From a virus: DNA of 64,000 bases. A program made the position numbers and the translations under genes. The notes beneath the pieces were generated by a model that was not told the DNA's origin, did not search any database, and saw nothing but the letters and a program-made list of their open reading frames with translations. The stretch is from the IMG/VR virus record IMGVR_UViG_3300042198_000079, positions 62,001 to 126,000 of that record. One strand, given 5' to 3'. Position 1 is the first letter of the stretch. Every line of letters begins with the position of its first letter. Shown one piece after another: positions 4,122 to 53,563 of this stretch.

Positions 4122-4211
4122 AATTTGTATAGTCGCAAACCAATTTGTGAAAATACGAAATTACGGAAAACATTTTTGTGGTCCGTGAAACCAAAAACCC
4201 AAAATAAAAAT

Positions 4212-5738
4212 ATGTTATTAGACGAAAGTTATCAAGGTTCGGTATCCAAGGCAAAAATGCTCACTGCCAAATGGCGGGAAGTTCTTGACCACGAAGATGC
4301 CGGAAGTCGCAGAATTGAAGATCCATATCTTCGTTATTGTACAGCTCAAATTCTCGAAAACCAAGCAGATTGGTTTAAGAAAAAGGGAATGTTGAGATTT
4401 AATGGTGGTCGTGGAGTTCAAAGATTGAACGAAGCAGGACTTGGAAACAATGATATTTATACCTCTTATGGTAATCCCGGATACAATGTCGGTGCAAATG
4501 GCGGAGATGTTCCTGCCAATAACGACTTTTATGCTCCGGGCGATGCTCGTATCCCGACTACGTTGATCCCGATGTTAAGACGTACGTTCCCTTCGTTGAT
4601 CACGCACGAAATTGCTGGTGTTCAACCTATGGACGGACCCTTAGCACTCATTTGGGCATTACGTTATCGTTATGATGGCGAAAACCTTGCTTGCTTCTCT
4701 CCTGATGGTGGTTGCAGCATGAATGCTCCTGCTGTTAGCAGTGCCCCTTGGAGAGCGCACAGTTATCAAGAAGCGGGTAATCCTGCTTACTTGAATACTG
4801 CTCACACTGGTGTTATTAACAATAGCCTTAGTGGTATTGGTGTTGTTGGTCAATCTACCTCTGGTAGTAATTTCGACAGTCTTCCGTTTGAAATGGGTGT
4901 TGCAGAACAATTGTTAAATTGGGAAAGCAAAACTAATTTCCCGCAAATGAAGTTTACCCTTGAAAAGACTGCTGTTGAAGCAGGTACTAGAAGGCTTGCT
5001 ACCAAGTGGCCTCTTGAAGCTGAACAAGACTTGGGTGCAATGAATCGTTTGGATATTCGTCAGGAAATGACCAATATCATGGCATACGAATTACAAGCGG
5101 AAATTGACCGTGAAATTGTCATTCGTATGAGAAACATTGCTTTGCAAGCTGGTCAAGGTATCGCAAATGGGTATTCCTTGTGGAGTCCTTGTAGTGCTGA
5201 TGGTCGTCACTTTGCAGAACGTGGTGTTGATTTGTATGCTCGTATCGTGCAAATCGCAAACATCATGACTGTCAAGACCAGACGTGGTCCTGCTAACTTC
5301 TTGATTGTTACCCCTACGGTTGCAACCATTCTCCAAACTTTGGATAATTATACTTTGTATAATATCAATCACACTCTTCCTCAAACCCAATCTTTTGGTA
5401 TTACCAAGATTGGTACCTTGGGTGGTGAGTTTACTGTTTACAGAGATGTTCACACCGAAGCTCAGTGGGTTCAAGGTCAAAGACCTAATCGTATTGATTA
5501 TATCCTTCTTGGATACAAGGGACGTGAGTTCTGGGATACTGGATTGGTTTATGCTCCGTATATTCCAATTACTATCCAAGAAACCATTGGACCAAACGAT
5601 GGTGCTGCTAGAATTCTCATGATGACTCGCTATGCGGTAGCGGAATCGATTTGGGGGTCCAGTAACTTCTATCATGTTCTGATTTTGAAGGGTCTTGGTC
5701 AAGCATGTGGAGTTAACGGTCCTGTGTATATGGGCTAA
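4212..5738 (+). CDS. 23: Major capsid protein (T4 gp23-like)
   Basis: 508 residues from the ATG at 4212; an upstream in-frame TTG at 4125 is rejected because it lies just behind the late promoter and codes for unrelated basic residues. RRTFPSLITHEIAGVQPMDG aligns with the conserved T4 gp23 stretch around GVQPM. In T4 the precursor is cut by prohead protease gp21 after a FLTE site near residue 65. Here RLNE/AG at residues 71-76 lies at the equivalent place, so the mature shell protein would start at Ala75. This internal cut site gives a reference for the leader peptides discussed in the findings. A terminator follows at 5773. Confidence 0.93.
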   Translation: MLLDESYQGSVSKAKMLTAKWREVLDHEDAGSRRIEDPYLRYCTAQILENQADWFKKKGMLRFNGGRGVQRLNEAGLGNNDIYTSYGNPGYNVGANGGDVPANNDFYAPGDARIPTTLIPMLRRTFPSLITHEIAGVQPMDGPLALIWALRYRYDGENLACFSPDGGCSMNAPAVSSAPWRAHSYQEAGNPAYLNTAHTGVINNSLSGIGVVGQSTSGSNFDSLPFEMGVAEQLLNWESKTNFPQMKFTLEKTAVEAGTRRLATKWPLEAEQDLGAMNRLDIRQEMTNIMAYELQAEIDREIVIRMRNIALQAGQGIANGYSLWSPCSADGRHFAERGVDLYARIVQIANIMTVKTRRGPANFLIVTPTVATILQTLDNYTLYNINHTLPQTQSFGITKIGTLGGEFTVYRDVHTEAQWVQGQRPNRIDYILLGYKGREFWDTGLVYAPYIPITIQETIGPNDGAARILMMTRYAVAESIWGSSNFYHVLILKGLGQACGVNGPVYMG

Positions 5739-44743: not shown

Positions 44744-47700
44744 ATGTCACAAAGAAAAGACTTCGATTGGCTTAATAAAGATTCTAAATTATTTTTATCA
44801 CGCGGATACTTGGAAGAAGGAGAAACCGCAGAACAACGAATAAAAAATATATCAAAAACTGCTCAAAAATATTTGGAGCAAATGTGGTATAAAAATAACA
44901 AATATAAATTCTGGAAAAAGAAACCAGAACTTATACGAAACTTTTCGGAAAAATTTGAATACTGTATGGCACGGGGATGGTTTTCTTTATCTACTCCGGT
45001 TTGGAGCAATTATGGTAAGAAAAGAGGGGCACCAGTGAGCTGTTTTGGGTCTCGTACTGAGCTAGATTCTTGCGAATCTATTATATACACTAATGCTGAA
45101 ATAGCAACTATGACTCAAAAAGGAGGAGGAACTAGTATTTACATTGGAGATTTGCGTCCAAGAGGATCAAAAATATCTAGTGGAGGTGTTAGCGATGGTC
45201 CAATTTCTTTTCTTGGTCTGTTTGAGTCTTCTGCGAACATAATGAAGCAGGGGTGTTATGCATTTGATACTGAAGTCTTAACTGAAAAAGGATGGATGTT
45301 ATTTGAAGATATTATTAATAGATCTGAAATAAAGGTTGCCCAAGTGCATGATGACGATTCTATAGATTTTGTAACACCAGATAATTATTTTAAATACGAA
45401 GTAGATGAAGAATTGATTTTATTTAAAGATTCTAAAAATATTGATTTATTGGTTACTCAAAATCATAATATGAGGTATAAAAGGTTGGATCGGGTAAACA
45501 CTAAAAAAGATAAGGACGGGAAATATATTTCAAATGAGAAATTTTTAAATCCTAAAGTGTTTATGAAACAAGCAAAAGATATGCCTCTTTACAGAAATAT
45601 TATTCTTAATAATTCTGGCTTTGCTAAAGCAACGAGTAATAATTGTCTTACACATAAAGAACGATTTCTCATTGCATTACAGGCAGATGGACATATAAAC
45701 AAACTAACCAATAAATTAGATTTTCATTTTTCTAAACAGCGAAAAATTGATAGACTTATTAATATTCTTTCAAATCTAGAAGGATATTCATATATCAAAC
45801 GAGACAGTAAGAGCGATAATACTACATATATAATTGTTACTCCACCCGAGGGAATTCAACACACTAAACAATTTGATTGGGTGAATCTAAACACCATTTC
45901 TAAAGAATGGTGTTTAGATTTTGTTTTGGAATTGTTGGAATGGGATGGGTCTAAAAATGCCAATAATCCAATCAATGGTAAATATTCCAGCGTGCTGGAA
46001 TATAATGTAGATATTGCTCAATGTGTTGCTTCTATGTGTGGTTATAAAACTCGTAAAACTACTGTTGCTCGCGATGAATCAAGACATTGTATTTATAATT
46101 TACAATTATCAAAAGGCGAACATTTTGGTGTCGAAAAATTGAAACCAGAGTTACTTCCATATAAGGGGTTTGTATATTGTGTGGAAGTGCCAACACATAA
46201 TATCTTAGTAAGAAGAAATGGACACGTAACGGTTTGTGGAAATTCAACAAGACGAGGAAGTCTTGCCGCATATCTTCCAATTGAACATCCTGATATTATG
46301 GAATTTTTAGATATCAGAATGGAAGGATGCCCTCTTCAAAATATTTTAAGTGGAGTTACTGTTGGGAATGAATGGTTTGAGGAAATGAAAGCAGGGGATA
46401 AAGGAAAAAGAAAAGTGTGGGCAAAATTAATGAAAGCCCGCGCATTTGCTGGTGTTCCTTATATTCTCTTTAGAGATAATGCCAATAAAAATAAACCACA
46501 GGTTTATAAAGACAAGAATATGGAAATAGTGGCATCCAATCTTTGTGTTACTGGTGACCAGAGAGTTGTCAGTGATCGAGGTCTTCTAACAGTTAAAGAA
46601 TTATATGAACAAGGAGGGTCGTTAAAACTTTTCGATAACGATAAGATCGTTAATGCATCTCCTATGCAACTAATAGAAAAAGATGCTGATGTATTTAAAA
46701 TTACTTTAGAAAACGGATTAGAGCATTCTATTACAGGGTATCATAAAGTATCTACTAAAAATGGAAATGTAGCTTGTAGCGATTTGAAAGTAGGGGATAT
46801 GGTAAAAGTCCAAACCAAATCGATGTATGGAGATAGTAGTGGATATTTCCCAGAATATGAAGATTATTATATTTCGTTTAATTCGTATAGTAATGGAGTT
46901 GGGTCTAAACAAGAAATTTATGATGCTTTAAAAAATCTAACATTAGAACAAAAAATCTTTCTTGCATCAAGAGGAGAATTAATCAATGATGATGGATGTT
47001 CTAAAATTGTTAGTATAGAACATATAGGAAAAGAAGATGTTTATTGCACAACCGTAGATTCGCAAGAACATTTATGGATTTGTAATGGGTTTATTACTTC
47101 TAACTGTAATGAAATAATGCTCCCTTCTTCTGAAAACGAATCTTTTGTTTGTGTTTTATCTTCTATAAATTTGTTATATTACGATGAATGGAAAGATACT
47201 GATGCTCCTGAAATCCTTCTTGCATTTTTAGATACGGTTAATGAAGAATTTGTAATTAAAACTAATAATATGCCTTTTATGAAGAGGGCAAATAGATTTG
47301 CTAAACGACACAGGGCACTTGGTTTAGGAGTGTTAGGATGGCACTCCTATCTCCAAAAAAACATGATTCCATTTGGTAGCTTTGTTGCAATGGGCAAAAC
47401 AAACGAAATTTTTTCCAAAATAAATGATAAAACTTTAAACATGACAAAACAACTTGCGTCATGGTTTGGAGAACCAGAATTATTAAAAGGTTATGGAGAA
47501 CGAAATACTACTCGTTGTGCATTGGCACCTACCAAATCTTCTTCATTTATTTTGGGTCAAGTTTCGCAAAGTATTGAACCATATCATTCAAATTATTTTG
47601 TTGACGATAAAGCAAAAGCTCAAGTAGTTTTTAAAAATCCATATTTGAAAGAAGTATTAAAAAAATACGACAAAGATGATCAAGAAGTGTGGGATAGTAT

Positions 47701-48007
47701 TAAAGATGCAAATGGAAGCGTTCAACATTTGAAATTTTTAACTGACGAAGAGCGAGAAGTGTTTAAAACATTTGGAGAAATATCACAAATGGATATCATT
47801 AAACAAGCAGGTATTCGTCAAAAATATATAGATCAAGGACAATCATTGAATTTAATGATACATCCTAAGTGTTCTGCGAAAGACGAGAATCAGTTATATA
47901 TTGCTTCGCACGAAGAAGGTTTGAAAGGGCTCTATTATCGAAAAAGTTTTAATGCTGCTAGTGAATTTAGAAGAGAATTGGTTTCCTGTTCTACTTGTGA
48001 AGGATGA
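44744..48007 (+). CDS. nrdA: Ribonucleotide reductase class I alpha subunit with two inteins
   Basis: 1087-residue precursor; removal of 330 and 187 intein residues leaves about 570. Extein landmarks: STPVWSNYGKKRGAPVSCFG with one redox Cys, the QKGGGTSIYIGDLRPRG loop, IMKQG/STRRGSLAAYLP (intein 1 site), ASNL/CNEI with the radical-carrying Cys and Glu (intein 2 site), and ELVSCSTCEG at the C-terminus with the redox CxxC. No ATP-cone domain is visible at the N-terminus, so allosteric activity control by dATP is probably absent. It reduces ribonucleotides together with NrdB. Both splicing events are required for activity. Confidence 0.93.
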   Translation: MSQRKDFDWLNKDSKLFLSRGYLEEGETAEQRIKNISKTAQKYLEQMWYKNNKYKFWKKKPELIRNFSEKFEYCMARGWFSLSTPVWSNYGKKRGAPVSCFGSRTELDSCESIIYTNAEIATMTQKGGGTSIYIGDLRPRGSKISSGGVSDGPISFLGLFESSANIMKQGCYAFDTEVLTEKGWMLFEDIINRSEIKVAQVHDDDSIDFVTPDNYFKYEVDEELILFKDSKNIDLLVTQNHNMRYKRLDRVNTKKDKDGKYISNEKFLNPKVFMKQAKDMPLYRNIILNNSGFAKATSNNCLTHKERFLIALQADGHINKLTNKLDFHFSKQRKIDRLINILSNLEGYSYIKRDSKSDNTTYIIVTPPEGIQHTKQFDWVNLNTISKEWCLDFVLELLEWDGSKNANNPINGKYSSVLEYNVDIAQCVASMCGYKTRKTTVARDESRHCIYNLQLSKGEHFGVEKLKPELLPYKGFVYCVEVPTHNILVRRNGHVTVCGNSTRRGSLAAYLPIEHPDIMEFLDIRMEGCPLQNILSGVTVGNEWFEEMKAGDKGKRKVWAKLMKARAFAGVPYILFRDNANKNKPQVYKDKNMEIVASNLCVTGDQRVVSDRGLLTVKELYEQGGSLKLFDNDKIVNASPMQLIEKDADVFKITLENGLEHSITGYHKVSTKNGNVACSDLKVGDMVKVQTKSMYGDSSGYFPEYEDYYISFNSYSNGVGSKQEIYDALKNLTLEQKIFLASRGELINDDGCSKIVSIEHIGKEDVYCTTVDSQEHLWICNGFITSNCNEIMLPSSENESFVCVLSSINLLYYDEWKDTDAPEILLAFLDTVNEEFVIKTNNMPFMKRANRFAKRHRALGLGVLGWHSYLQKNMIPFGSFVAMGKTNEIFSKINDKTLNMTKQLASWFGEPELLKGYGERNTTRCALAPTKSSSFILGQVSQSIEPYHSNYFVDDKAKAQVVFKNPYLKEVLKKYDKDDQEVWDSIKDANGSVQHLKFLTDEEREVFKTFGEISQMDIIKQAGIRQKYIDQGQSLNLMIHPKCSAKDENQLYIASHEEGLKGLYYRKSFNAASEFRRELVSCSTCEG
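45254..46243 (+). mobile_element. Intein 1 of NrdA with LAGLIDADG endonuclease
   Basis: 330 residues (171-500) from CYAFDTEVLTEKGW to VTVCGN before Ser501. Block B is LLVTQNHNM (T-x-x-H-like), the endonuclease motifs RFLIALQADGHIN and FVLELLEWDGSKN both keep their Asp-Gly, so homing activity may be retained. Block F/G is VYCVEVPTHNILV ... CGN; the residue before the terminal Asn is Gly rather than His, a known but less common variant. It contains a perfect 15-bp inverted repeat at 45884-45920. Confidence 0.88.
45884..45920. repeat. Perfect 15-bp inverted repeat in the intein 1 coding sequence
   Basis: AATCTAAACACCATT and its exact reverse complement flank the 7-base loop TCTAAAG. It encodes residues around NLNTISKEWCLDF, between the two endonuclease motifs. 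Confidence 0.85.
46544..47104 (+). mobile_element. Intein 2 of NrdA (mini-intein) at the catalytic cysteine
   Basis: 187 residues (601-787) from CVTGDQRVVSDRGLL to FITSN before Cys788. Block B is HSITGYHKVS (T-x-x-H), block F is VYCTTVDSQEHLWI, block G ends ITSN with Ser before the Asn. At this length there is no room for a complete LAGLIDADG domain; the 60-residue middle is probably a remnant. The +1 residue is the radical Cys of the reductase, so splicing chemistry and catalysis depend on the same side chain. Confidence 0.87.
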
Positions 48008-48357: not shown

Positions 48358-48855
48358 ATGTTAGAAAAATTTAATAATTATATCAATGAATTTCTTTTAG
48401 AAAAAAAAGATAGATGTCACAGAAAAGCCGAACAAGTTTATGGTAAAAAAACTTCTGCATATAGAAGCGGAGCAATAGTAAAATGCAGACAAGGCAAAAT
48501 CTGGAAAAAGAAAAAAATTAAAGAAAATACAATAAAAGAAGAGACGCTTGAAGAACCAACACAACTTAATGAAAAAAACACTTTCTCGAAAGAAAAAGAA
48601 AGTGGTTTACATGGTTGGTTTTCTCGTCAAGGAGGAAAAGGAAAAAGTAAAGGCTGGGTAGATTGTAATACCTGTCGTAAAGATAAAAAAACAGGAAAGA
48701 AAACCTGCAAAACCTGTGGAAGAGGCAAAGGCGAAAAAAGAAGCAAATATCCTGCCTGTCGTCCAACACCTTCAGCGTGTAATTCCAGAAAAAGATTAAA
48801 AAAAGGATCTAAAAGAATTTCTTGGAAAAAAGGAAGTAGAACGAAATCCAAATAA
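48358..48855 (+). CDS. Highly basic leader-bearing protein (DUF5872-like), predicted internal head protein
   Basis: 165 residues. Leader MLEKFNNYINEFLLE/K. Behind it is DRCHRKAEQVYGKKTSAYRS then GAIVKCRQGKIWKKK, a motif seen in many phage structural-type proteins, and a second part with GLHGWFSRQGGKGKSKGW, VDCNTCRKDKK, KTCKTCGRGKGEKRSKYP and ACRPTPSAC, which I recall from small Cys-rich viral proteins annotated DUF5872. The protein is very rich in Lys/Arg, as are T4 internal proteins IPI-IPIII that are packed with DNA. Late promoter. Role inferred: DNA-associated packaged protein. Confidence 0.62.
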   Translation: MLEKFNNYINEFLLEKKDRCHRKAEQVYGKKTSAYRSGAIVKCRQGKIWKKKKIKENTIKEETLEEPTQLNEKNTFSKEKESGLHGWFSRQGGKGKSKGWVDCNTCRKDKKTGKKTCKTCGRGKGEKRSKYPACRPTPSACNSRKRLKKGSKRISWKKGSRTKSK

Positions 48856-48857
48856 AA

Positions 48858-49637
48858 TTATTCTGTTTCTAAGTTTAAATATTTTGGAGGAACGTGTCCG
48901 TGAATAATTAAAGTATCTTCGCTTATTCCCTCCCAAGATTCTACTTCGCAATAATAATTATCTAAGCCTATCATATGTGCCAAAGATCTTTTTAATTCAC
49001 ATATATTTACAGATTCTTCTTGTGTTACTTCTGGCATATATCCGTCCTTTTTCATTAATCCTAAATCAATACTAAAAACACAATCTCCATACGATCCTGA
49101 ACCGCTTAGTGCGTTTTCATCTTCGTCAGTAAAACAAAAAATAGCATCTCCTGTAGATCTATTAGATATTCCTCTTGTTTCATTTCTTGGTTCTAATCCA
49201 CGTTTTTTTATACTTTCTACATTTTTACGTGGTGTTGCATGATATATAAAGCTCACATTTTCCTTTTCTGGAACGCTATCCCAAAATGATTCTTCTTCTC
49301 GTTCTGGTAAAAGCATTTCTACATCATAATCAGATAAATTATCTAACCATTCATCAGCTTTTTCTGAACGACTACCGTCGTATATATAAGTGTCTTTTTT
49401 GAAATTATAAACTATATATTTTTCTTTTTCTTTACTTAATTCGACAACCCAAAACACAATTCCGAATAATGTAAATATTTCTTCTATTTCATAAAGTTCT
49501 AAATTTGTTAAAAAATAATCATCTCTTGGATCAAATTCAGACACATTGTCAATATTTAATATATTTTTATAGTGTCTTATTTTTCTTTCTTTCGCTCTTT
49601 CTTCATTATCGTCTTCGGGAACATCGAACAAAAGCAT
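48858..49637 (-). CDS. ADP-ribosyltransferase/Tpt1-like fold protein
   Basis: 259 residues from ATG 49637. Residues about 130-195 read SFIYHATPRKNVESIKKRGL, then EPRNETRGISNR and GDAIFCFTDEDENAL, the form Y-H-x-T ... I-x-x-x-G-L ... F of NAD-using ART folds (PARP, Tpt1, DarT groups). Upstream of the ATG the frame stays open for 19 codons that resemble a capsid-targeting leader (SKYNKFIKE/Q) but contain no start codon. That region is a copy of the junction inside the neighbouring gene. The leader may be lost, or a non-standard start may be used. Target unknown. Confidence 0.55.
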   Translation of the reverse strand: MLLFDVPEDDNEERAKERKIRHYKNILNIDNVSEFDPRDDYFLTNLELYEIEEIFTLFGIVFWVVELSKEKEKYIVYNFKKDTYIYDGSRSEKADEWLDNLSDYDVEMLLPEREEESFWDSVPEKENVSFIYHATPRKNVESIKKRGLEPRNETRGISNRSTGDAIFCFTDEDENALSGSGSYGDCVFSIDLGLMKKDGYMPEVTQEESVNICELKRSLAHMIGLDNYYCEVESWEGISEDTLIIHGHVPPKYLNLETE

Positions 49638-49685
49638 TTGCTCATATTGTTCTTTTATAAATTTATTATATTTAGATAAAACACA

Positions 49686-49743
49686 AAGATACTTATATTA
49701 ATTTACTGGTTTAGTAATTAATTTCGTTTCGAGTTTCTTTATA
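49686..49743 (-). repeat. Duplicated 58-base junction segment, copy A (intergenic)
   Basis: Matches copy B (50506-50563) at about 52 of 58 positions, offset 820. In copy A the late box reads TATAAGTA, the start codon position reads GTT, and the glutamine codon CAA of copy B is TAA. It lies between the ART gene and the 551-residue gene. Confidence 0.85.
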
Positions 49744-49770
49744 AAATATTCTTATCCGTTAAGGTGGGAT

Positions 49771-51426
49771 TTAAAATGTTTGTATAGCAGGACGAAATCT
49801 TGCTCTTTTTTCATCTATCACATCAAAATAAATTCTACCATATATTTCAAACGGATAACCAACAAAATCCATTATATTTCCTAAAATTGGAAGTTTAGAA
49901 CTAGTAAAATCCCAAATATCATAATATGAAATATATTCTCCTTCGTCGTCTTTACCATAACTTATTGTATAACTTCCCATAAATGTAGATTCTAGTCTAT
50001 GACTAGGAAAACCACATAAATCTGATATTTGACTGGAAGTTGCTGGTTTTCTTATTTTTTTAGCAACATCTACAAGTATTTTAGTATTTTCTTCTGACAT
50101 AATATAAAATTCTGCCAAATTATATTCTTTTTTCTCTGGTAAAATATCATAGTATATTGAATTTTTATTTTTACTTATTTTTGGGAGATGATTTGGATTT
50201 GTTATTTTAAAAAAACTTCTTTCTAACACTTCTTTATCTCCAGTAAGAAAATAATACCATGCATCATAATCTACTTTAAAATCATCTTCTAAATAATCAT
50301 CATTTTCAATGTCATCGAAATATTTATCTTTTGTCACACGTAGAATAAGATTTATAAATTCGTTTATACTTTTAGGAAATTCATTTCTTGGATCGATGTT
50401 TCTAAATATTCTGTCTGCCAATGATTTAGGCAACAACCCCTCATTTAATAAATTATCACAATATTTATTAAATGAATGTAATACAAACTTTTCTTTATTC
50501 ATATAAAGATATTTATATTGATTTACTGGTTTAGTAATTAATTTCAATTCAAGTTTCTCTATATTAATTTTAATTTTTGGAACATAATCTTTTGGAAGTT
50601 TGTTTTCTATACCTAAAAATTCTGTATTTTCGTCCACTATAAAAGTTAAAACAAGATCTGTTAAATTTAACATAATTTGCGAAGAGGTCCAGACTTTGTA
50701 GTTTGTTCTATATGGTTCTAAATAACCGGGAATTCCGTCATGATGTTTTCTGAGACTAGCAAGCAATTCTTCTGGAGTTTCTGATTTTCTTGCTTCTTTT
50801 GTTGCCAATCTATATCTAGACATAGACGATTTTCTATCTTTTCCTGTTTGATATCCTTGATCTGGATATTGAATACCGTGATTAGTTCTAACTATAATTT
50901 CATCTTTTCCAAACTTTTTAATTGACGGTTTTCCAAATTTCAATTTTTCAATTGAAACAAAATAATCTTTACAACCAACTGTTGTATGTCCTCCTATACC
51001 TCTTTGGTAAAGATCTAAACATTTTATAACTTTTTCGATATTACTATAACCAAGTGCTTTTCTTATTTTAAATCCATCTTTTGATATTTTTGTTTTTTTA
51101 TTTCTATGTTTTTTATCCATAGATACTCCTTCGTTTTCGTCTTTTTTTCCTTGTAGAGTAGTATTAACTATTCCTATACCAAATTCGTTCATTCCTTCCG
51201 AATAATCAGTTTCTTCATCGTGCATATATACTGTTTCTATCCCATTTATAATTTCTCTAACTATAGATATTCTCGGAATATATGTTCTATCTCTGTTTTT
51301 TGCTAAAATTACTTTTCCCGCAACCGAAGTTCCGACTGATGTGCATTCGTTTAATATTTTAAAATTATGATTATTTAAAGTTTCCAATAAAAACTTATTA
51401 TATTTATGTAAAAATAAAAAATTCAT
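49771..51426 (-). CDS. Two-unit leader-bearing protein; N-terminal Ntn-hydrolase (acyltransferase/penicillin acylase-like)
   Basis: 551 residues. Unit A (1-308): leader MNFLFLHKYNKFLLE with a second site ILNE/C27-28; then CTSVGTSVAGKVILAKNRDR, EFGIGIVNTTLQ and RTNHGIQYPDQGYQTG fit the AAT/choloylglycine-hydrolase group, whose nucleophile is an N-terminal Cys, here Cys28. Unit B (309-551) begins with its own ATG (50502), late box and leader FNKYCDNLLNE/G, and has an unrecognised body (YDIWDFTSSKLPILGNIMDF). The product is thus two packaged-protein modules fused in frame, with unit B probably also made alone. See the duplicated junction and the findings. Confidence 0.65.
   Translation of the reverse strand: MNFLFLHKYNKFLLETLNNHNFKILNECTSVGTSVAGKVILAKNRDRTYIPRISIVREIINGIETVYMHDEETDYSEGMNEFGIGIVNTTLQGKKDENEGVSMDKKHRNKKTKISKDGFKIRKALGYSNIEKVIKCLDLYQRGIGGHTTVGCKDYFVSIEKLKFGKPSIKKFGKDEIIVRTNHGIQYPDQGYQTGKDRKSSMSRYRLATKEARKSETPEELLASLRKHHDGIPGYLEPYRTNYKVWTSSQIMLNLTDLVLTFIVDENTEFLGIENKLPKDYVPKIKINIEKLELKLITKPVNQYKYLYMNKEKFVLHSFNKYCDNLLNEGLLPKSLADRIFRNIDPRNEFPKSINEFINLILRVTKDKYFDDIENDDYLEDDFKVDYDAWYYFLTGDKEVLERSFFKITNPNHLPKISKNKNSIYYDILPEKKEYNLAEFYIMSEENTKILVDVAKKIRKPATSSQISDLCGFPSHRLESTFMGSYTISYGKDDEGEYISYYDIWDFTSSKLPILGNIMDFVGYPFEIYGRIYFDVIDEKRARFRPAIQTF
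50506..50563 (-). repeat. Duplicated 58-base junction segment, copy B (inside the two-unit gene)
   Basis: Encodes the end of unit A (KLITKPVNQYKYL) and runs up to the internal start of unit B. It carries an exact late box. The counterpart is at 49686-49743. Confidence 0.85.
50510..50517 (-). promoter_or_regulatory. Internal T4-type late promoter for unit B
   Basis: Exact TATAAATA on the minus strand, seven bases before the internal ATG at 50502, the same spacing as at other late genes. Confidence 0.6.
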
Positions 51427-51440: not shown

Positions 51441-51454
51441 TGAAAAAATAAAAG

Positions 51455-51558
51455 TTTTAAGAAAATTTGTTAGTGAGTCTCTGTCAACCACTTCTTCTTC
51501 GAGAACTCCAAAAGGTTGGGAAAGTGCGAAAACTCCTACCTAACAAATTTTCTTAAAA
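51455..51558. ncRNA. Intergenic structured element closed by a 19-bp perfect stem
   Basis: Arms 51455-51473 and 51540-51558 are exact reverse complements (core AAGAAAATTTGTTAG). They enclose 66 bases that can form an inner CAACC/GGTTG pairing. The element fills the gap between two minus-strand genes, starting 3 bases after the stop at 51562. It is more GC-rich inside than the flanks. It is neither a tRNA nor a simple terminator; a non-coding RNA or mobile hairpin element is possible. Confidence 0.6.
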
Positions 51559-51561
51559 TTC

Positions 51562-53043
51562 TTAATTTTCGTTCGCTTTGTTTTCTTCTTCTAATTCTAT
51601 AATTCTTCTTATTATATATAGAGGATTTTTAAAAGTGTCTACGATATAGACACTTTTATAATATTCTAATATTTTCATATAATTATCTAAAGCTTTTTTA
51701 TTTTTAATATGCCCGAGACTTCCTAATTCTTTAAAAACTCCTCTACCATATATTATCATATATGCATATGTATTATATTTCTCATAGTCATCCGTATCTT
51801 TTAGTTTGCCTTCTTCGTCTAAATTTAAAATATCGCAAACTTTATTAAAATCGTCTTTCATGTCGTTCCAAGATTCTATATATTCTTTTTTCTTTTTTTC
51901 TTCTTCGGCTTTATAATATTCTCTTTTTCTTATTCGTTGTTCTTCTTCTCTTTTTTCTTTTGAAAAAGTTTCTCCAGTATTAATATTTTCCTCTCCCCTT
52001 TCATACCAAATTCTTTTAAATTTATTTTTAAAGTCTGATAATTTTTCATCGTGATATAAAGTAACATCTATATCACCTCTTTCCGATTTTATTCTTATCT
52101 CCATTCCGTGCCTAGTGAATTTTTTAAACATTTTATGTTTTTTTTGTCCCATTTTTAAGTTTGCCATTCTGTATGGCAAACTCGCATCATAAATGTCAAT
52201 TTTTATTTCTCTACCCTTTACAGTCCAAAATATTTTATTATTATCACTATTTTTAATTTTGTCCTCGTTCATTTCTTTTGCTAAGAATGCTACAATTTTT
52301 CTTTTTAGCCTAAAAAGAAATTCTCCTCTTATTTCGTTTGAACCATTTCCCGTTACAAATGTTTCTATTATTTCAAAAGAAAAAGGAGTTAACCATAATA
52401 TTTGTTCCGGTTCAGCATGATATATTGATGCTTGATTTAATGTTTTTGCTTTGTCTTCCAAACAATCTATCCTCATAGATTTTAAAATTTTAGATTGATC
52501 AAATTGATTTCTAACAGTTGGTTCTACGAAATTATAATTTCTTCTACTATTTGTTCGCGTATTTGAAAAATCCATTTGAACTGCCGTCATGAATAATTTT
52601 CCGGGCGAGGTTACTCCTTTAGCTTTATTTGGATAAATTTTTTTTGCTCTAAAATATGAATCTTCGAAATCTATATCTTCAAAATTTGCTCTTTTTAACA
52701 AGTCTATAGCAAACCATTCCTCCATATCACTTAATATTACTTTATGTTTAGATGTGTCTTTTATAACTTTTAAAAATTTACTGTTAGCTCCGTAAAAAAT
52801 ATCACCCGGATGATCTATTACATATTTCAAAGGATATGCATATGTCCCTACGGGATCGTTGTGGGTAGGATCTTTACTAAAACCTTTGGATAAAACATCT
52901 GTACTATTTCCATTATCAAATCTAACATATAAAGTCGGGTCATTTTTTTTAGATTTATATTTTTTATAAAATTCGTTAAATCCTTTTGAAAAAACGTCAG
53001 AAAAATGCACTTCGCATAAAATATAATTTTTAAAACTTCTCAT
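51562..53043 (-). CDS. Large leader-bearing protein of unknown enzymatic type
   Basis: 493 residues. Leader MRSFKNYILCE/V. Residues about 35-110 read TLYVRFDNGNSTDVLSKGF, then THNDPVGTYAYPLKYVIDHP and DIFYGANSKFLKVI, a domain form (x-G-x-Y-x-YPL ... YG) that I recall in other large phage head-associated proteins, some with ART-like character. Around 220 ASIYHAEPEQILWLTPFSF follows, and the C-terminal third is a charged coiled coil (KEKREEEQRIRKREYYKAEE). Exact late promoter. Predicted to be packaged and processed. Confidence 0.58.
   Translation of the reverse strand: MRSFKNYILCEVHFSDVFSKGFNEFYKKYKSKKNDPTLYVRFDNGNSTDVLSKGFSKDPTHNDPVGTYAYPLKYVIDHPGDIFYGANSKFLKVIKDTSKHKVILSDMEEWFAIDLLKRANFEDIDFEDSYFRAKKIYPNKAKGVTSPGKLFMTAVQMDFSNTRTNSRRNYNFVEPTVRNQFDQSKILKSMRIDCLEDKAKTLNQASIYHAEPEQILWLTPFSFEIIETFVTGNGSNEIRGEFLFRLKRKIVAFLAKEMNEDKIKNSDNNKIFWTVKGREIKIDIYDASLPYRMANLKMGQKKHKMFKKFTRHGMEIRIKSERGDIDVTLYHDEKLSDFKNKFKRIWYERGEENINTGETFSKEKREEEQRIRKREYYKAEEEKKKKEYIESWNDMKDDFNKVCDILNLDEEGKLKDTDDYEKYNTYAYMIIYGRGVFKELGSLGHIKNKKALDNYMKILEYYKSVYIVDTFKNPLYIIRRIIELEEENKANEN
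51630..51658. repeat. 12-bp inverted repeat near the 3' end of the 493-residue gene
   Basis: TAAAAGTGTCTA and TAGACACTTTTA around the loop CGATA, inside coding sequence. It may act as an RNA hairpin near the end of the message. Confidence 0.75.
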
Positions 53044-53095: not shown

Positions 53096-53563
53096 ATGAC
53101 ATCGACAATTTTAGAAAAATATACAAATTATATAAATTCTATTTTTGAATCCGAATCTAAAAAACAGGCAGTATTTATAATAATACCGATTAGTGAGAAC
53201 ACATTAGCAGCAACAACAAGACCAAACGAAGAAAACAAAATAGGACTTCCCGGAGGGAAGGTAGATCCCGGAGAAGAATTGATAGATGCTGTTGTTAGAG
53301 AATCTACAGAAGAAGGATGGAAAATAGACCGGAAGTTAGTTTCCGAAACCCCTATACGCGATATATTAATAAATAATACACACGTTTATTGGTTTAGATA
53401 TACAGGAACAGCAGAAGAATTATCAGAATATAAAGAAAAACATAGAGGTATACTCCCCATAGTAGTAACAGTTGAAGAAATTTCAAATTCTGGTTTTGGT
53501 AATGAATTTATTAGAAATTGGTGGAAGGAAAACGTAAAATTATTAAACGAAAAAAATAAATAA
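53096..53563 (+). CDS. Nudix hydrolase with capsid-targeting-like leader
   Basis: 155 residues. N-terminus MTSTILEKYTNYINSIFE/S is a longer form of the shared leader. The Nudix box G-x5-E-x7-R-E-x2-E-E-x-G is complete in LPGGKVDPGEELIDAVVRES followed by TEEGW. Nudix enzymes cleave nucleoside diphosphates linked to another group (for example ADP-ribose, NADH, dinucleoside polyphosphates, mRNA caps). If packaged, it could act on host nucleotides or signals at injection. Followed 5 bases later by the subtilisin-like gene. Confidence 0.8.
   Translation: MTSTILEKYTNYINSIFESESKKQAVFIIIPISENTLAATTRPNEENKIGLPGGKVDPGEELIDAVVRESTEEGWKIDRKLVSETPIRDILINNTHVYWFRYTGTAEELSEYKEKHRGILPIVVTVEEISNSGFGNEFIRNWWKENVKLLNEKNK

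Follow-up and report, generated by a model that had tools for sequence, protein, structure and literature searches.

A probable phage Ntn-hydrolase precursor with a predicted prohead-protease site directly before its putative catalytic cysteine

The window analyzed here is a 64,000-nt part of a 144,634-base IMG/VR virus record, whose genome is labelled G000. On its minus strand, positions 49771..51426 hold an Ntn-hydrolase open reading frame of 551 aa with the N-terminus MNFLFLHKYNKFLLETLNNHNFKILNECTSVGTSVAGKVILAKNRDRTY. An earlier note on this DNA had confined the gene to 50500-51426; the start of the gene stood, but not its extent, as that interval stops at the residue-309 ATG and the frame is open to 49771, which makes the full ORF nearly twice as long. 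The motif FKILNECT, given there as residues 23-30, is present but occupies residues 22-29, and the numbering of E27 and C28 was correct. Residues 1-15 (MNFLFLHKYNKFLLE, 51382..51426) form a putative capsid-targeting leader, assigned by sequence, tag likeness and a predicted helix at residues 3-19, and end at a first L-x-E site, FLLE. A low-confidence linker follows (residues 16-27, TLNNHNFKILNE, 51346..51381; pLDDT <50 at residues 20-25) and ends in a second site, I-L-N-E. The predicted prohead-protease site L25-N26-E27 (51346..51354) lies directly before Cys28 (51343..51345), the predicted N-terminal nucleophile once cleaved, and the C45/AAT-like Ntn-hydrolase domain spans residues 28-302 (50521..51345), all on the minus strand. 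A long terminator-like inverted repeat (TTTTAAGAAAATTTGTTAG ... CTAACAAATTTTCTTAAAA, 51443-51562) lies in the gap that separates the Ntn gene from the gene upstream.

The remainder of the frame appears to be a second tagged unit fused in frame (residues 309-551, MNKEKFVLHSFNKYCDNLLNE followed by G; 49771..50502, minus strand), with its own ATG at 50502-50500 and an LNE site at 50440-50448. No Pfam match was obtained for residues 309-551, and no relative of residues 328-551 was found in viral contigs. Just upstream of this ATG, within the long ORF, lies the late-promoter-like sequence TATAAATA (50510..50517, minus strand), which is present in 66 genome copies on both strands and occurs at most 60 bp upstream of 31 of the 148 predicted genes. 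The junction, about 70 bases long, has a second copy near 49680-49750, and alignment of the two junctions places CAA (Gln303; 50518..50520, minus strand) opposite TAA in the downstream copy; relatives end near this position. The Ntn gene probably lost its stop codon at Gln303, so that two putatively packaged proteins became one chain; a cut at LLNE329 could part them once more. It is also possible that the CAA/TAA difference is an assembly or sequencing error.

Other genes of the window are noted here for context. A protein weakly similar to KptA/PARP ADP-ribosyltransferases (E about 0.03) is encoded at 48858-49699 on the minus strand; upstream of its ATG, the same frame contains the tag-like LSKYNKFIKE, which has no usual start codon, perhaps because a single base was gained or lost in a run of Ts. 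At 44744-48007 (plus strand), a ribonucleotide-reductase-like protein apparently carries two intein-like insertions, as judged by reading only.

The Ntn-hydrolase assignment, already proposed in the earlier note, draws on profiles and on structure prediction. The window protein matched Pfam AAT with E=1.5e-4 at 22 bits, just below the cut-off of 23.2, and 13 of 14 relatives matched NCBIfam NF040521 (C45 family autoproteolytic acyltransferase/hydrolase; best E=2.9e-11), with L023 at 37.5 bits, well under the cut-off of 85; in neither case was the curated-profile cut-off for the C45/AAT class reached. AAT was the sole match among the Pfam Ntn families, the choloylglycine hydrolase (BSH/PVA) profile being unmatched. 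A PHROGs search gave no consistent family, and isocitrate dehydrogenase, the only PDB match by sequence, was set aside as a chance match. An AlphaFold2 model of residues 28-303, built from an alignment of 44 sequences, reached a pLDDT of 89 and a pTM of 0.89. Its best PDB match in Foldseek was CV2077 (3gvz, E=2.3e-9), and the mature form of isopenicillin-N acyltransferase (IAT; 2x1d, E=1.1e-8) came second by E-value; the IAT precursor (2x1c), choloylglycine hydrolases (BSH), penicillin V acylase (PVA) and acid ceramidase were matched as well. Query-normalised TM-scores were about 0.46-0.60, and the likeness is therefore at superfamily level. The model and the Foldseek matches thus predict an Ntn fold whose first strand begins with the nucleophile. 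Cys28, the residue that the earlier note had proposed for the active site, is the first residue of this confidently predicted fold and is invariant across relatives.

Residues C28, N44, D46, E160, N182, H183 and R240 of the window protein correspond to IAT C103, N119, D121, E225, N246, H247 and R302, and all are invariant in the alignment of 72 lineages with IAT. The Cys, Asp, Asn and Arg at IAT positions 103, 121, 246 and 302 are therefore each matched by an invariant residue of the phage family. The main basis of these equivalences is the MAFFT alignment, with its first 19 positions ungapped; the IAT mature sequence used agrees with PDB 2x1d, and an hhalign comparison of the family with IAT gave a weak result on its own (E about 1e-3, probability 22%). 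From them, we infer the active-site geometry of the phage enzyme.

Viral contigs were scanned for relatives; one query gave 232 loci, from which the 80 best were taken forward, and further loci came from other queries. Two Chryseobacterium phages, MA9V-1 and MA9V-2, were also included. Conservation was counted over 104 distinct mature sequences, 102 of them with a leader, and the tree and alignment comprised 72 lineages. All 104 distinct relatives come from viral records; no cellular relative was found in two scans of genome contigs, and none in the plasmid search. MA9V-1 and MA9V-2 are the only isolates found with the gene and infect Chryseobacterium; the hosts of the carriers are probably Bacteroidota. 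In the literature, no virion proteomics was found for the gene-carrying isolates, the MA9V-1 paper showing an SDS gel only.

The predicted Cys nucleophile is invariant across all relatives, and the residue directly before it (P1) is Glu in 102/102 leader-bearing members, with P3 being Leu/Ile in 95, Val in 5, Met in 1 and Phe in 1; P2 varies among 11 residue types (N, K, Q, E, D, T, S, H, L, G, V). The two sequences of 104 without a leader, L089 and L142, begin Met-Cys, which was confirmed at the DNA level for L089. Across the 72-lineage tree, P1 shows two changes, both of them leader losses that give a Met-Cys start, while P3 changes 22 times and exits the hydrophobic class once; P2 changes 34 times and P4-P8 change 41-49 times. 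The (L/I)-x-E directly before the Cys, where the earlier note had placed the protease site, is kept family-wide while the surrounding residues drift, and it is held in leaders spanning from 4 to >300 residues. Since about 1.4% of positions in the G000 proteome carry an [LI]xE, the motif before the Cys of one gene would be weak evidence; judged by these alignments, its presence across 102 leader-bearing relatives cannot be explained by chance. None of the 104 distinct mature sequences has the A/S-x-E before the Cys that a phiKZ-type protease would need. T4 gp21 cuts after L/I-X-E (PMC9026906), and on sequence grounds the conserved pattern is this motif, fixed on the predicted catalytic residue.

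The fold itself suggests another route to a free N-terminal Cys. C45 proenzymes self-cleave, IAT doing so between Gly102 and Cys103, and the phage protein could mature in cis in the same way, with the prohead protease unneeded for Cys exposure. The nearest profile is indeed that of the autoproteolytic C45 family. With C45 acyltransferases (IAT, NF040521, Pfam AAT) the phage proteins share the fold and the positions of the N-terminal Cys, Asp, Asn and Arg; by E-value, only CV2077 ranks above IAT among the PDB matches. Unlike in C45 acyltransferases, however, P1 in the phage family is not Gly but a Glu inside a prohead-protease motif, and self-maturation leaves the fixed P1 Glu, the P3 Leu/Ile and the free P2 unexplained. 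Nor would self-maturation account for the recurrence of this motif in the same phages, at the leader ends of unrelated proteins and just before the mature part of the capsid protein. We therefore regard this main rival as unlikely and favor cleavage in trans by the phage protease.

The earlier FLLE site in the window leader (E15) raises a different question, namely whether the protein is packaged and trimmed only there, or incompletely, and remains an inert internal head protein with no enzymatic role. FLLE sits at a typical tag length, as this reading would expect; the catalytic residues, though, are invariant over a wide family, and the close relatives L009 and L002 have their sole such leader site at the Cys, their tags MTFKKYYLNSLLNE and QFNDYYKASNINE stopping right before it. 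The exact end of the L009 tag in particular disfavors cleavage at FLLE only, which the earlier note had named as grounds for refutation. Propeptides cut by prohead proteases commonly contain redundant additional sites (PMC9026906, PMC5694885), and FLLE15 fits this redundancy. An inert internal protein is thus very improbable, and cleavage at Cys28 remains the preferred reading. In the precursor model, after the leader helix at residues 3-19, a very low-confidence stretch at residues 20-25 precedes the first strand, as might be expected of an accessible cleavage site.

A protease of the appropriate type is encoded by the phage itself, as the earlier note had supposed. A gp21-type peptidase S77 scoring 54 bits lies beyond the window, at G000:C1:37409-37831; MA9V-1 also has one (29 bits), as do 17 of 36 further records and 4 of 8 more. 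A gp23-type capsid gene was found in 12 records, and S77 was present in 12/12 of these. In the screen that included G000, MA9V-1 and the 36 further records, the 21 S77-negative records likewise had no gp23 and therefore seem to be fragments that lack the head module, which counters the idea that S77 is truly missing from some carriers. The gp23-type major capsid protein of G000 lies within the window (4125..5738, plus strand; PF07068 E=7e-77), and its predicted cleavage site, placed by position, is QRLNE/AGLG (slash marking the cut; LNE at 4425-4433, plus strand). Capsid x-x-E sites placed in the same way are GFLNE/SIIG in MA9V-1 and LLDE/ATQ, LINE/ATS and LIDE/SNR in others. A host Glu-specific protease might instead expose the Cys, and P1 Glu by itself would suit such an enzyme. 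This we consider the least probable alternative of all: P3 Leu/Ile is conserved as well, as for gp21, the leaders resemble phage tags, and S77 is present in every capsid-bearing record found. The phage S77 enzyme is the better candidate.

Similar tags are widespread in the same phages. By reading of the list, some 15-18 unrelated G000 proteins open with the same kind of tag, for example MLTFKKYLLNE, MISFKNYLIE, MKTFKEYLLLSE and MFEKFNKYFYSMLNE, and, like the capsid protein, carry the same kind of site. In G007, a 290-kb relative, the Ntn leader MKNLIRSILNEE is similar to its neighbours' MKNIIRDILKEE and MKKIIRNILHEE. Because the leader resembles both T4 capsid-targeting sequences and the leaders of many G000 proteins, we infer that it is a T4-type capsid-targeting sequence directing the protein to the prohead core. 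In L026 and L094, the leader is merely M-L-N-E or M-I-K-E, retaining the cleavage motif without a targeting sequence; such leaders are too short to target, and another packaging signal would therefore be needed in those members. L142 lacks a leader although its phage carries S77, which counts against arming by the prohead protease. In several relatives the Ntn domain lies 90-350 residues from the start, and some frames exceed 1,000 residues and include nucleotidyltransferase or kinase-like domains; in both groups the junction is still (L/I/V)-x-E/C.

Several related arrangements were observed alongside. L285 (2677-6834), L088 (1999-5010) and L286 (368-4273) encode very long proteins with the Ntn domain mid-protein and poly(A)-polymerase-head, kinase-like or cytidylyltransferase-like partner domains, and by their sequence look like polyproteins for the prohead protease. 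In the window, a Nudix hydrolase gene with a probable capsid tag (MTSTILEKYTNYINSIFE; 53096-53563, plus strand) and the genes at 48358, 49771 and 51562 form a cluster of tagged, probably packaged proteins. At L198 (G028 60001-74851), an array of small proteins all start with MKLSELRQLIREEVRRVINE or near it, apparently another capsid-tag class.

The closest parallel is phage T4, whose IPI, IPII, IPIII and Alt carry gp21-cleaved capsid-targeting sequences, likewise short N-terminal tags with an (L/I)-x-E motif at the leader end. G000 also resembles T4 in encoding a gp21-type protease and a gp23-type capsid in one genome, and T4 Alt is also a packaged enzyme. The T4 cut is known to remove the tag; in the phage family described here, the predicted cut is also placed to create a catalytic N-terminal residue. 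Choloylglycine hydrolase, penicillin V acylase and acid ceramidase belong to the same Ntn superfamily by fold, but the phage protein is shorter than these and does not match the choloylglycine profile. In phiKZ and SPN3US, many packaged head proteins are matured after x-x-E by a gp21 homologue (PMC10052503, PMC9026906), with a specificity of S/A-x-E or A-x-E as opposed to L/I-x-E here; no report of such a cut creating a catalytic N-terminus was found. Nor did the open-access literature yield a paper joining Ntn hydrolases with prohead proteases or capsids, which is weak evidence of novelty.

Together, our results make it very likely that the gene product is a packaged precursor of an Ntn amidohydrolase/acyltransferase, armed by an S77 cut after L-N-E27 that exposes Cys28. 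Every computationally testable part of the earlier note's interpretation passed, and the sequence evidence supports it as a whole. The leader, to judge from its likeness to other tags, would bring the precursor to the prohead core. During head maturation, the S77 prohead protease would cut after E27, so that the leader is lost and Cys28 is freed as the N-terminal nucleophile; the enzyme would presumably be active in the maturing head only. We speculate that it is delivered with the DNA and early in infection attacks an amide of the host, for instance an N-acyl lipid, an N-acyl amino acid or a peptide; the quorum signals, bile-acid-like amides and lipids named in the earlier note are equally speculative. 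Assembly-coupled zymogen activation, in which a single cut would both release the enzyme from the core and make its nucleophile, is the simplest account. Removal of a signal peptide exposes the Cys of some bacterial choloylglycine hydrolases and may serve as a precedent for Cys exposure in trans; the new part would be a prohead protease in that role.

More broadly, the family probably represents a widespread class of phage zymogens in which capsid maturation creates the catalytic residue: the protease would unhook the tag and arm the enzyme, and activity would be limited first to the particle and afterwards to the cell infected next. Prohead-protease sites are known for tag removal; here, such a site is locked to a nucleophile in dozens of lineages. 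If this is true, assembly of the virus would itself switch on a packaged enzyme, through formation of the active-site residue. The phage would in this way get around the difficulty of making an enzyme inside a cell that the enzyme might harm. It would also point to an unrecognised infection step in probable Bacteroidota hosts.
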